Assembly (NCBI GenBank): GCA_012960415.1
Contig: DUBH01000084.1
Location: forward strand, 121,689 to 181,502
Direction: 5' to 3'
DNA length: 59,814 bases
Origin: Henriciella sp.
Lineage (GTDB): Bacteria; Pseudomonadota; Alphaproteobacteria; Caulobacterales; Hyphomonadaceae
Positions within the stretch are counted from its first letter, which is position 1. The number at the start of each line of letters is the position of its first letter. The translations under genes were made by a program, and so were the position numbers. The notes under the pieces are model-generated. The model had not been told where the DNA came from, ran no database searches, and worked only from the letters and a program-made list of their open reading frames with translations. Of this stretch, positions 31,282-36,713 are shown piece by piece.

Positions 31282-33319
31282 ATGAAACTCAAACTCCACC
31301 TGCTTGCGGGAACGATGATGCTTGCCTGCCTTTCAGGCCACGCCCAGACACCGGCAAGCGACCCGCAGGCGCAGGCAGCGCGAACCTACACACTGCCCGA
31401 TTTCGAGCAGTATTCGCCGAATACGGCACTAGACATGGTGACGCGGATCCCCGGCTTCTCCATCCGCAATGGCGACTTGTCGGAGCGCGGCCTCGGTCAG
31501 GCCGAAGGCAATGTGCTGATCAATGGGCGGCGCATTTCAGGCAAGTCACTGACACCCCGCGATGCCCTCGCCCGCATTCCGGCCACCAATGTCGAGAAGA
31601 TCGAGATTGTCGACGGCGCAACACTCAACGTGCCGGGCCTGTCCGGGCAGGTGGCAAACATTACGGCCAAGGTGAACGGTGTCTCGGGCACCTGGGACTG
31701 GCGGGCGCGCTTTCGCGACAACCTCCCGCCCTATTATCACGGCGGCAGCGTTTCGGTGGCCGGACAGCAGAACACGCTGGGCTGGACACTTGGCCTGACA
31801 AGTGAACCGATCAGGGGCGGCGCTTCAGGGCCGGAGTTTGTGCGTGACGCCAATCGCAACCTGATCGAGACGCGCGACGAACGCGTCACCAATATCGGCA
31901 ATAGTGCGGGCATCTCTGGCGCGCTGGAATGGACGCCGTTGAATGGGTCAGTCGGCAATCTCAATGCCGAGTACAATATTTTCCAGATCGACGCTGAGGA
32001 GACGTCCAACCGGTTTCCGGTTGCTGGACAACCAAGCATTCGCCAGTTCGCAAACTCCGAAGATGAGTGGAATAGCGAGATCAGCGGCGACTATGAGTTC
32101 GATCTCGGCCCTGGCCGCCTGAAGACGATCGGTCTCTGGCGCTTTGAACACAGCCCCTTCATCTCTAGCGTCCGCACGACCGAGGCAGATGGCACGCTTA
32201 GCGAACGCTCCATCTTCGAGCAGACTGTCGATGAAGGCGAGAGCATCCTGCGCAGTGAGTATAACTGGGCGCCGAGCGAGACAGTGGACTGGCAGATTGC
32301 CGGTGAGGCGGCCTTCAACTTCCTTGAAGCCGAAGCAGACCTGCAGGCGCTTGATGCCACGGGTGGACTTGTCCCTGTACCGCTGACCAATGCGAATTCC
32401 CGCGTCGAGGAGAAGCGGCTCGATGCGTCCATCACGCATGGCCGCAAGCTTTCAGAAGACCTGTCGGTGCAGGCCTCGTTCGGCATGGAGTATTCCGAGC
32501 TCAGCCAGTCAGGCGGCGCCGCACAGACGCGAACCTTCACGAGGCCGAAAGGCTTTGTCTCGGCTGCATGGACGGTGAATGAGCGCCTGACGATCAATGC
32601 GCGGGCCGCACGCGAAGTGGGCCAGCTCAACTTCTTCGATTTCATCTCGTCGGTGAACGTCAATGCCGGCAATGGCAATCAGGGCAATCCGGACATCGTC
32701 CCGCAGCAGAGCTGGAAAGGCGAGGTCTCATTTGATCGCGATTTCGGCGCAGCTGGTGCACACACGATGAAGGTCTACTACGAGGCCATTGAGGACGTTT
32801 GGCCCGAATGCAGAAGGCCCAGGCAATCTGGACCAGGCCACGCGCTACGGCATCGCGACCAATGGCACGTTCAAGTTTGCGCCTGTCGGCGTTGAAGGCC
32901 TCCAGCTGGAGTATGAGCTTGAAGTGCGCCAGTCCAAACTGGACGATCCGCTAACGGGCGAGACGCGCCGCATCAATGATGACCTGATGCTGGGCGGTTT
33001 CTTTGAGCTTCGCTACGACATTCCGAAGACGGACTGGGCGCTGGGCTTTGGCGGGGAGCGCTATGACAATGCGCCCTTCGTGCGGCTCGATGAGCGCCAG
33101 CTGTTTGAGCTCCGGCCGATCTACACCTTCCTCTATGTCGAGCATAAAGACATCTTCGGCATGACCGGGAAGGTCGAGTGGTTCAACGTGACCGATGGCG
33201 ATGAGCAATTCACACGGCAGGTCTACACGCCCCGGCGCGATGGCAGCCTTCTCTTCAGTGAGGACAGGAGCTGGAGCGCCGGGCCGATCCTGACCGTGTC
33301 GCTGCGAGGGACGTTCTAG
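31282..33319 (+). pseudogene. TonB-dependent receptor, frameshifted
   Basis: Outer membrane receptor with signal peptide (MKLKLHLLAGTMMLACLSGHA), a plug domain (about residues 35-120, with TALDMVTRIPGFSIRNGD, VLINGRRISG and NVEKIEIVDGA) and a beta-barrel ending in the typical terminal Phe (VSLRGTF). The frame breaks near 32797-32801: the first frame runs to 32895 with nonsense sequence after EAIEDV, and the second takes over with GPNAEGPGNLDQATRYG to 33319. One extra T in the TTT at 32798-32800 explains it. The joined product is about 678 residues. It lies between murB and ddl, opposite to the dcw genes, and shares the CTAG stop with murB. Real inactivation and sequencing error cannot be told apart here. 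Confidence 0.85.
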
Positions 33320-34272
33320 GCCTTCGCCTGGATGCGGCCGATGCGGCGGATTTCCCAGCGAAGGTCCACCCCGGTCACATCCAGCACGCGGGCGCGCACC
33401 AGCTCCCCAAGCGCCTCGATGTCTGCCGCGGTGGCGTCATCGGTATTGATGAGGAAGTTGCAGTGCTTCTCGGACACCTGCGCGCCGCCAACCTTCAGGC
33501 CCCTGCAGCCCGCTGCATCGATCAGTTTCCAGCTGGAGCGCTGGTCTGGCGTCCCCGGCGGGTCCGGATTGGCGAAGGTGGAGCCGCCCGTCTTGTCCTT
33601 GATCGGCTGTGTTTCAGCGCGCCGGGCCTGATGCTCTTCGATCTCGGCCTGAAGCGCTTCCGGGTCACCGTCACCTGACCCTGTCAGCAGGATGCCGGTC
33701 ACGATGACATCATCCGGAAAGTTGGTGTGGCGGTAGGAAAACTCGATCTTCGGGTCGCCATACTGGGCGATCTCGGCTTCGAAGCGGACTTTCTCACCAG
33801 AACGCGTGATGCCTTCAATCTGGTTGGCGACGTCTTTCAGTTCCCGGCCATAGCAGCCAGCATTGGTGCGCACAGCCCCGCCAATGGAGCCGGGGATACC
33901 AGAGAAGAAGGTGAGCCCCGAAATGCCGTGCTTTGCCGATGCCTTGGCGACGGCCAGATCAAGCGCGCCAGCACGTGCGAAGAGGGAATGTGAGCCAGCC
34001 GGCTCAACACTGCCCCAATAGCCGCCCATGAGCCGGATCGTGACGCCCTCGATACCGCCATCCCGGATGATGGAATTTGAGGCAACGCCCATGAAGTGAA
34101 CGGGCACATCGGCCGGCAGCACTCTCAGGAAGTCCGCAAGATCATCCTCATCCTTTGGCAGGAAGAGCGCATCGGCCGGCCCACCGACGCGGAACCAGGT
34201 GTAGGGCGCCAGCGGCTGATCCAGCAGCAGCTTGCCGCGCACGTCGGGCAGGTTATCTCGCCAGTCAGCCAT
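33316..34272 (-). CDS. murB: UDP-N-acetylenolpyruvoylglucosamine reductase
   Basis: FAD enzyme of 318 residues that reduces enolpyruvyl-UDP-GlcNAc to UDP-MurNAc. FAD-binding blocks are [17 protein letters not shown] at the N-terminus and [20 protein letters not shown] (two lines) in the middle. FSYRHTNF gives the Tyr-Arg pair and [13 protein letters not shown] the Ser motif of the type II MurB C-terminal domain. [10 protein letters not shown] is the final substrate block. It begins three bases after the inserted DUF4268 gene ends, which itself overlaps murC, so it stays in the operon. Its stop shares CTAG with the convergent receptor. Confidence 0.97.
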
Positions 34273-34275
34273 CGC

Positions 34276-35283
34276 CTAGTCGATCTCCAATTGCTTTGGA
34301 TCTACAGGCCCTGGATCAAGCCTTAGGCGCTCCATTAAGTCGTGAGCGACAGTCTTTAGCTTGATGAGAGTATCGATAATCCAATTGAGCTCACTCGTCT
34401 CGTCCAGTGCGCTTGCTGCTTCAGTAATCGACCGATAAATCGCAATTCGGGCGGTCGCCTTGTCGTTCATTCTCTCCCAGCTGATATCTTCTCCATCTAG
34501 AAGGTTTTCAGAATCGATAGTGTTCTTGAAAAAATCAAAGCCCAGTTTTGCTGATGCCATATAAAAATATATCTCTGCACGAAGTCCGATGTTCGACTTC
34601 GTTGCAGTCACATCAACGCCTAGCCATGACTTCAAGCTTAGCGACTCCGCCGTTTGCCAGTTCCCTTTGAATGGGGTGCGGCGCCCCAAAGCCGGGTATC
34701 TACCTTCTGCTTGACTGATTAAACGTTGCCAATAATCGCGATGGGCGATCTGACTTTCCGTCAGCTCACTTTCAGCCAATCGAGCTATTTTGCGGAAGTC
34801 TCGAGTCCAATCATTAGGATTGGCCGCAACGTTGAATTTTGGCGCAAGATCGCTCTCTCCAATGCGGTAAAGTTCAATCTCGACAGCAAAAAATGAGTAT
34901 TTTTCGTCAGAAATTTCATTCAACCAGTCGATTGCGGCACGGTGCTCGTCGCGGATTTTCGAGCAAATCCATACGATCGTCTTTGCATCGAGCCCGGCTG
35001 CATAAGTGAGACATTGGCCCAAGTGACTGTGATCGGATTGGGCCAGCTGATTTTCGATGAGTACGCGATTACCTCGAAAGTCTTCTGCCAAAATATCAGC
35101 AGAAAAACGTCCAACAGCCTGCTCACGGCCGATCGGTGTAAGGGCCTGCAGCCCTAGTGCTTCACCCAACAGCGAGATGTTTTCTTCTTCACAAAGCCAA
35201 GGTGTGAAATTGCGAGCTTCGTCGACCCAAGCTTTTCGCAGGTCGACCAATTCCAAGCGGCCGAGCTGCGGTCGCTCAATCAT
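34276..35283 (-). CDS. DUF4268 protein with PD-(D/E)XK nuclease-like domain
   Basis: A 335-residue protein of the DUF4268 type. N-terminal features are [20 protein letters not shown] and then a restriction-endonuclease-like core: Glu54, Asp63 (SADIL), Glu77-x-Gln79 (VLIENQL), SDHSHLGQ with Gln90, and TYAAGL with Tyr94. The C-terminal half (about 180-335, including [19 protein letters not shown]) is the DUF4268 domain. The gene is AT-rich: hand counts for three 60-base lines (34501, 34561, 34861) give 22, 26 and 19 G+C, against 37 for a line in murC (35401). Its ATG overlaps the murC stop (ATGA at 35280-35283) and it ends three bases before murB. It looks horizontally acquired yet kept within the operon. 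Nuclease activity is inferred. Confidence 0.85.
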
Positions 35284-36713
35284 GACGCGAGCTTCCCGGC
35301 GAGTGCATTCGCATGCGTGGTGATATCGCCAGCGCCGAGGCAAACGACGAGGTCGCCGGGGCGGGCAATCTCGCGAATGGCGGCCGGAAGGTCATCGAGA
35401 GATGTGAGAGCGCGTGCATCGGCATGGCCTCTTGCGTTGATCGCATCGACGAGTGCGGTGTGGCTCGCCCCCTCAATCGGGTCCTCACCGGCTGCATAGA
35501 CAGGCGCGATGAAAGCGATGTCGGCGTCATGGAAGCAGCCAGAGAAATCCTTGAAGAGATCGTGCAGGCGCGAATAGCGGTGCGGCTGGGCGACGGCGAT
35601 GACGCGGTTTTCGCCCTGCATGGCGCGGGCAGCCTTCAGGACGGCTGCAATCTCCACCGGGTGGTGACCATAATCGTCTATGATGCGGACACCATTCCAT
35701 TCACCTGCAGGGGTGAAGCGACGTTTCACGCCGCCGAAATTCCTGAAGCTGGTGCGGATCTGGTCGGGCGTCGCGCCAAGCTCCAGCGCGACCGTGATGG
35801 CGGCGAGGGCGTTGGAAACGTTGTGGTCGCCCGCCATTGGCAGCCGAACGCCTTCAATCGAAGACACGCCGATGCCGAGACGCTCACGTAGGACGACATC
35901 GAAAGTCACGCCGCCCGGATCGGATTCAAGATTGGTCGCACGGACGTCTGCCTGACGGTTGAACCCATAGGTCAGGATGCGCCTGTCAGACACGCGCGCC
36001 ACCATGGCGGAGACTTCGGGATGATCGGTGCAGAGGACGCCAAACCCGTAGAACGGGATGTTCTTCACATAGGTATCGAAAGCGGACCGCAGCGCCTCCA
36101 TGGAGCCGTAATGCTCCATATGTTCGGGGTCCATATTGGTCACGATCGCGATGGTCGGGCGCAGCTTTGTGAAGGTGCCGTCGCTCTCATCAGCCTCAAG
36201 CACGATCCAGTCGCCATTGCCGGCTTTGGCGTTAGAGCCATAGGCATTGATGATGCCGCCATTGATGACGGTCGGGTCGATGCCTGCGCCATCAAGGAGT
36301 GCAGCGACCATCGTTGTCGTCGTGGTCTTGCCGTGCGTGCCTGCGACAGCCACCGTCCATTTCAGGCGGATGATCTCTGCCAGCATGTCGGCGCGGCGCA
36401 CGACAGGGATGGCTGACTCACGCGCGGCGACGACTTCCGGGTTGTCTGCCTTGATGGCCGAAGAAATGATGACGGCCCCTGCCCCGATCACATTCTGCGG
36501 CTTGTGGCCGATATGGACGGTCGCGCCCTTGGCGCGCAGACGCTCCACATTGGCGCTGTCCTTCACGTCGGAGCCCTGGACCTTGTAGCCGAGATTGATC
36601 ATGATCTCGGCAATGCCTGACATGCCGATGCCGCCTATGCCAACGAGGTGGGCCGGACCGAGATCAAAGGGCGAAGGTTTGTTTGGCATGAATGTTCTGA
36701 CTTCGTAGGGCAT
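35280..36713 (-). CDS. murC: UDP-N-acetylmuramate--L-alanine ligase
   Basis: First amino acid ligase of peptidoglycan precursor synthesis, 477 residues. The N-terminal Rossmann-like part has [14 protein letters not shown], the ATP loop is [10 protein letters not shown] at 125-134, and [10 protein letters not shown] and [13 protein letters not shown] follow. [14 protein letters not shown] and [12 protein letters not shown] are the C-terminal MurC signatures. The start at 36713 has GGAGG upstream, and an in-frame ATG eight codons later is an alternative. It is 106 bases downstream of murG, the largest gap in this half of the cluster, and its stop overlaps the DUF4268 start. Confidence 0.97.

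Follow-up and report, generated by a model that had tools for sequence, protein, structure and literature searches.

The window analyzed here, a stretch of 59,814 nucleotides from Henriciella sp., carries between murC and murB of the division/cell-wall (dcw) cluster a gene, hereafter the S11 gene, that is co-oriented with both neighbors (Table 1). Our reading of the open reading frames (ORFs) bears out the layout given in the original prediction, in which the start codon of the S11 gene overlaps the murC stop codon in an ATGA and the gene ends 3 nt before murB, which starts at 34272. A simple scan of 34200-35400 covering one promoter type detected neither promoter-like nor terminator-like sites, although chance alone would give about one of each. 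A purine-rich GGGAAG at the murC end precedes the ATG of murB by 12 nt in relatives and that of S11 by 8 nt in the window, and the tail of the S11 gene contains a GGAG 12 nt before murB; with these two motifs in place, both essential genes may stay translated.

Table 1. Features of the murC-murB junction and of the gene inserted there
Feature	Position in window	Strand	Description
PDC-S11 / DUF4268 gene	34276..35283	minus	335 aa, intact ORF, PD-(D/E)XK-like nuclease candidate
Inserted segment	34274..35286	minus	~1,013 nt (2 nt + ORF + 3 nt); replaces the 6-nt murC end of relatives
N-terminal PD-(D/E)XK-like domain	34819..35241	minus	residues ~15-155, limits set by eye from the AlphaFold model
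Predicted catalytic residues E54, D63, E77, Q79	35047..35124	minus	invariant in aligned members
DUF4268 domain	34345..34743	minus	residues 181-313, Pfam PF14088, E 1.3e-6
ATGA overlap, S11 start and murC stop (TGA)	35280..35283	minus	read from the sequence
murC	35280..36713	minus	TIGR01082, E 4.5e-153
murB	33316..34272	minus	NF010480, E 1.3e-101

The gene had been described as sitting in one of the most conserved operons of bacteria. The murC and murB flanks are confirmed; however, the order of the cluster is already broken by a gene for a TonB-dependent receptor on the opposite strand (31282-33319, plus strand) between murB and ddlB. In the window, a 17-bp deletion near 32797, not shared by three relatives (G004, G018, and G014), disrupts the receptor gene, which is, therefore, probably a pseudogene; in several genus members, the receptor has no match in the available flank. 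For a rickettsial endosymbiont, the literature passages considered here mention a hypothetical gene that separates murB from ddlB.

The window protein matches PADLOC family PDC-S11 over nearly its entire length (E 1e-96; residues 5-318 of 335 against positions 3-313 of 318 in PDLC04911), and PDLC04912 and PDLC04914 also match it. Membership in DUF4268, as originally proposed, stands at 28.9 bits against a cut-off of 27. The proposed PD-(D/E)XK motif is present as E54-x8-D63-x13-E77-x-Q79, i.e., with E-x8-D rather than the E-x9-D spacing first reported. E54, D63, E77, N78, and Q79 are invariant in 56/56 genome-derived members found by HMM; the original case would have been weakened by variation of the motif residues among homologues, and there is none in this set. 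All five are also invariant in 13/13 and 41/41 aligned sequences, but because the 41-sequence alignment was drawn partly with the ENQ pattern in a viral scan, the invariance of E77 and Q79 in it is partly built in, and 56/56 is the count to trust.

An AlphaFold model of the protein has a mean pLDDT of 85.7, with 10-residue blocks over residues 11-160 at 89-98. The order of its elements (H33-43, E49-57, E60-67, E73-78, H85-97, E102-107) is alpha-beta-beta-beta-alpha-beta, which is the core order of PD-(D/E)XK enzymes, and E54, D63, and E77 sit on three successive strands. The structure alignment (A4), from which the 41/41 count comes, comprises 40 of 43 homologues, short L160, L167, and L124 being omitted and near-duplicates dropped beforehand. 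The model thus points to a PD-(D/E)XK-like N-terminal domain with the predicted catalytic residues on the expected fold. The description as nuclease-like is supported to the extent of motif and predicted fold, but Pfam leaves the N-terminal domain of the window protein unassigned, with no match to a PD-(D/E)XK family. The NucS model reaches the window protein only at E 0.017, far below its cut-off, and single members among 41 match PDDEXK_4 (five), YhcG_C (two), NucS_C (one; E 0.11), and HSDR_N_2 (one) weakly, none better than E 0.016, while DUF4268 is matched at E up to 1 in 35/41. Sequence searches of the PDB produced nothing credible, the best profile match being at E 0.1, and Pfam detects neither DUF262 nor DUF1524 in the window protein. 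The position of the active-site lysine is occupied by Gln, which counts against assumed activity; in some PD-(D/E)XK families, Gln or Glu replaces this Lys. In two members from viral contigs, L162 and L163, a PDC-S11-like N-terminal domain is followed by a RAMA-like C terminus in place of the usual DUF4268; the RAMA matches (E 7.5e-5 and 0.0073) fall short of the Pfam cut-off. In L083, a provirus of Archaeoglobus profundus (BK065154.1) classed under Pleolipoviridae, a DUF4268 homologue adjoins a gene annotated as PD-(D/E)XK superfamily.

The junction is empty in the nearest relatives of the window. In G004 and G018, in which MurB is 98-99% identical and the flanks are ~92% identical in DNA, murC TAG abuts murB ATG. 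Alignments with G004, G018, and G014 lose homology at 35287 and regain it at 34273; the six bases of the relatives that form the last codon and the stop codon of murC are replaced by ~1,013 nt, little beyond the ORF. An assembly artefact is rejected on the basis of 12.4 kb and 7.1 kb of collinear flanks at 92% identity to G004, and an ancestral gene fixed at the junction is rejected because the junction is empty in the nearest relatives. The genus sample comprised 29 genomes including that of the window, and murB was found in all 29. An S11 insert at murC-murB is present in 1/28 genomes with a readable junction, i.e., in the window, while in the 29th the junction is at a contig end; the junction comparison suggested in the original prediction thus finds the gene not fixed.

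The accompanying statement that murC and murB are normally adjacent was too strong. The murC-murB gap measures 0-1 nt in 11 genus genomes and 51-59 nt in 3; single genomes have gaps of 170, 243, and 1,793 nt, six have 736-791 nt, and four have 1,395-1,446 nt. The long gaps elsewhere in the genus contain other ORFs. In the family, murB matched in 59/61 genomes, and 15 new loci were checked in its other genera: four have a gap of −4 or 0 nt and two a gap of 863-1,157 nt, and in 9/15 murC was not within the 1.5 kb covered. The murC-murB junction is, therefore, tight in most near relatives of the window but no universal constant in the genus or the family. At L042 (G026), it holds an opposite-strand ORF of the GPP34 family and an unassigned ORF of 194 aa, similar ORFs being present in other genus members, and at L034 (G012), it holds an insert of its own of 1.8 kb with two ORFs, one for a secreted-looking protein of 388 aa that matches TonB_C weakly and starts in an overlap with the stop codon of murC, the other of 131 aa. 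The 243-nt spacer of L035 (G010) is repeat-like by eye. None of the four proteins of the G012 and G026 inserts has a PADLOC match, leaving the idea that all murC-murB inserts are defence genes unsupported.

The S11 gene differs in composition from its neighbors. Its G+C content is 49% and its GC3 0.50, compared to a GC3 of 0.755 in murB and 0.734 in murC. The 60-base lines with 22, 26, and 19 G+C that had first drawn attention to the gene are real but are the three lowest of the 16 lines wholly within it; the mean is 29.5 (49%) versus 36.7 (61%) in 23 murC lines. Judged from the GC3 contrast with murC and murB together with the empty junction in the nearest relatives, the S11 gene at murC-murB is foreign and horizontally acquired.

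PDC-S11 proteins are patchily distributed. In a phylum sample, 23/398 genomes matched at E 1e-3, DUF4268-only matches included; at E 1e-40, PDC-S11 is present in 20/385 genomes of the class, 14/328 of the window's own order, and 18/341 of the order of G375, which may be the Rhodobacterales. It is also found in 63 plasmid records, at 52 loci on viral contigs, and in 4 phage records, one of which covers >80% of the query. The window copy has no close orthologue: it is 40% identical over 287 residues to that of G025, the only one of 28 other genus genomes with PDC-S11, in which the gene lies near hsdM-, hsdS-, and hsdR-like genes away from murC-murB, and 49% identical over shorter stretches of G057 and L033. 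A contig scan with the single window protein recovered 1 locus, and a genus search around G1058 recovered G1058 alone.

We surveyed the neighborhoods of 56 full-length genome loci, setting aside DUF4268-only and partial phylum matches, L210 (partial, with an internal stop), the duplicates L003, L059, and L199, and plasmid and viral members. Restriction-modification (R-M) genes, for which several reference proteins came from the surveyed loci themselves, are present in 22/56 within the flank searched, which was at most 7 kb and only ~1.5 kb for many loci; a housekeeping operon, defined as murB, murC, pyrB, and pyrC only, in 7/56; and neither in 27/56, many of these with a flank of ~1.5 kb or less. 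S11 shares a stop/start overlap of 4 or 1 nt with at least one neighbor at 25/56 loci (16/22 R-M, 6/7 housekeeping, and 3/27 other) and with both neighbors at 12/56 (9 R-M and 3 housekeeping), to be read against a crude baseline of 12/66 neighboring pairs in 30 of the same loci that includes R-M operons and is no proper control family; PDC-S26, considered as a control, occurs in 2/195 genomes, which is too few. Overlaps on both sides are exemplified by hsdS-S11-hsdR (L116), res-like-S11-mod (L094 and L114), and REase-ARP-S11-PDDEXK_4 (L051), and in several loci hsdS-like and hsdR-like genes flank S11, in some of them together with an additional ORF.

A second housekeeping seat is formed by pyrB and pyrC, which NCBIfam identified at representative loci. 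Of the 18 genomes with S11 in the order of G375, 6 have it beside pyrC or pyrB, at loci with both genes. In the genus of G375 and G793, S11 adjoins pyrB in 2/7 genomes: these two have the order pyrB-ATGA-S11-GTGA-membrane protein, and in G794 and G351 the junction is empty, pyrB overlapping the gene for the membrane protein by ATGA. In G873, S11 lies between a small gene and pyrC, which are joined directly in 4 other genomes of its genus (pyrC 93-99% identical). At three junctions including that of the window, little beyond the ORF was, thus, inserted at stop/start codons. The pyrBC-seated copies fall into two clades in both family trees (bootstrap/SH-aLRT 92/97 and 84/92 in the second tree), and the window copy branches apart from them, beside L118 (81/92). 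The tree prefers three entries into housekeeping operons; however, a single pyrBC clade survives the AU test (p-AU 0.42), which weakens two independent pyrBC entries and leaves at least two entries (dcw and pyrBC) that are safe. In several of the housekeeping seats, the S11 copy has less G+C than the surrounding locus (copy/locus: window 0.49/0.59, L190 0.48/0.61, L192 0.44/0.55, and L185 0.57/0.66), and the contrast is smaller in L193 (0.65/0.67), L058 (0.62/0.64), and L194 (0.61/0.66). The pyrBC-seated pair G375-G793 has a dN/dS of 0.20, i.e., it is under purifying selection; two other pairs gave 0.18 and 0.46, the latter being the solitary pair L055/L057, one of which is truncated, and two were saturated.

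The PDC families are said to go back to Payne et al. 2024. As described in the parts of two papers that concern them, PDCs were proposed by guilt-by-embedding in immune operons and can be single- or multi-gene (PMC12988326, PMC12255303); most are without validation according to the former. The PDC-S11 family is, thus, already catalogued as a defence candidate, and the literature passages at hand describe no tested member. Among the 10 strains of a P. aeruginosa panel that carry PDC-S11, 90% were phage resistant, a correlation only, going by the relevant portion of the report (PMC10855318), and co-occurrence of PDC-S11 is mentioned in an excerpt on S. suis (PMC12813430). The window protein resembles PDC-S11 in the near full-length profile match, the conserved N-terminal motif, and the C-terminal DUF4268; the difference is in the seat, an essential cell-wall operon rather than the immune operons of the discovery set, and immune-operon embedding is a feature of that set, not of the protein. 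DUF4268 is joined to the domains of the GmrSD type IV restriction system in some homologues, as a passage on that system states (PMC4619093), but the window protein lacks the DUF262 and DUF1524 of GmrSD and has a PD-(D/E)XK-like catalytic domain instead. With NucS, HSDR_N, PDDEXK_4, and YhcG_C it shares the PD-(D/E)XK-like core and weak profile matches; it differs by scoring below every family cut-off, by E-x-Q for E-x-K, and by its C-terminal DUF4268. DarTG2, placed between hsdS and hsdR in the section that describes it (PMC12255303), likewise exemplifies defence genes at another operon's junction, as S11 in several hsdS/hsdR loci, except that it is a toxin-antitoxin system of two genes and its host operon is an immune one. 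Our search, with bioRxiv and most subscription journals outside its scope, found no paper on defence genes embedded in housekeeping operons, and the word "housekeeping" is absent from the accessible part of PMC13092281.

Altogether, the comparisons at the level of sequence make it probable that the gene at murC-murB is a single-gene anti-phage defence candidate of PDC-S11 that entered by horizontal transfer as little more than a coding sequence, without a promoter, and settled where the murC stop meets the murB start. In favor of this reading are the PADLOC match, the invariant residues on the predicted core, the R-M genes near 22/56 loci, the company of GmrSD and RAMA-like domains, the foreign composition and empty sites, the housekeeping seats with two further empty/filled pairs, the purifying selection on a pyrBC-seated pair, and the resistance among P. 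aeruginosa strains; against it stand the 27/56 loci with neither kind of neighbor, the unassigned N-terminal domain with Gln for Lys, and the dN/dS of 0.46 in L055/L057. We suggest that the S11 gene is transcribed with the division/cell-wall operon, and that S11 would be translated from the purine-rich murC end and murB from the S11 tail. The N-terminal domain would then cut nucleic acid, with incoming DNA as the most likely target, and DUF4268 at the C terminus would select the DNA to be cut, probably via sequence or modification; this role of DUF4268 is suggested by its analogous position in homologues of GmrSD and by its exchange for a RAMA-like domain. The protein would be a putative one-protein type IV-like restriction enzyme, and type IV, modification-dependent restriction by PDC-S11 is suggested by domain company only. 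Following from the operon seat, the gene would gain steady, growth-linked expression without a promoter of its own, and casual loss would be costly. In place of the original claim that the gene cannot be lost by simple deletion, precise loss is possible, though many deletions would damage murC or murB.

The precise fit of the insertions beside conserved genes, seen in empty/filled pairs at three junctions, is also what a stand-alone, selfish homing-like nuclease might leave behind. Cutting the empty junction and being copied in by repair would account for ORF-only insertion at conserved operon junctions, and the predicted nuclease-like fold is in line with it. Nevertheless, compared by eye, the three junctions have no clear common target beyond the stop/start codons, homing does not predict that 22/56 family loci lie beside R-M genes, and the DUF4268 and RAMA-like domains point to restriction, making homing as the whole explanation very unlikely. 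The R-M neighbors also argue against a host-adapted accessory nuclease in DNA repair or processing that gains from dcw co-expression and has no role in defence, as does the patchy distribution in both orders, on plasmids, and on viral contigs; we consider such an enzyme unlikely, although the weak NucS resemblance and the purifying selection in the pyrBC pair are in its favor. That the insertion was an accident, tolerated because murC and murB stay translated, and that the gene is a neutral or decaying hitchhiker, would fit the foreign base composition and the unrelated inserts without PADLOC matches in the same genus, and the insertion itself may be younger than the split from the nearest relatives. 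However, the full-length ORF keeps all residues that are invariant in 56/56 members while its flanks have already diverged to 92% nucleotide identity, and we regard a hitchhiker as quite unlikely.

Building on the defence candidate as the preferred explanation, a broader and decidedly tentative model would be that PDC-S11 genes are naked, promoterless ORFs that move into the stop/start junctions of immune and housekeeping operons alike, leaving the neighbors in frame and translated. Essential operons such as dcw and pyrBC would then be shelters that express the gene and penalize its loss, and the nuclease may help insertion as in homing. The pyrBC cases link PDC-S11 to a second housekeeping operon, and the relatives seated there suggest that such genes borrow the expression of essential genes. 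The three empty/filled pairs make it testable how a bare ORF comes to be placed precisely where a stop codon meets a start codon; they also bear on whether an essential-operon seat stabilizes S11. Searches for defence genes mostly target defence islands and immune operons. If our reading of the murC-murB gene is true, its seat would give expression whenever the cell grows and make loss hard, and defence candidates inside essential operons could escape island-based searches.
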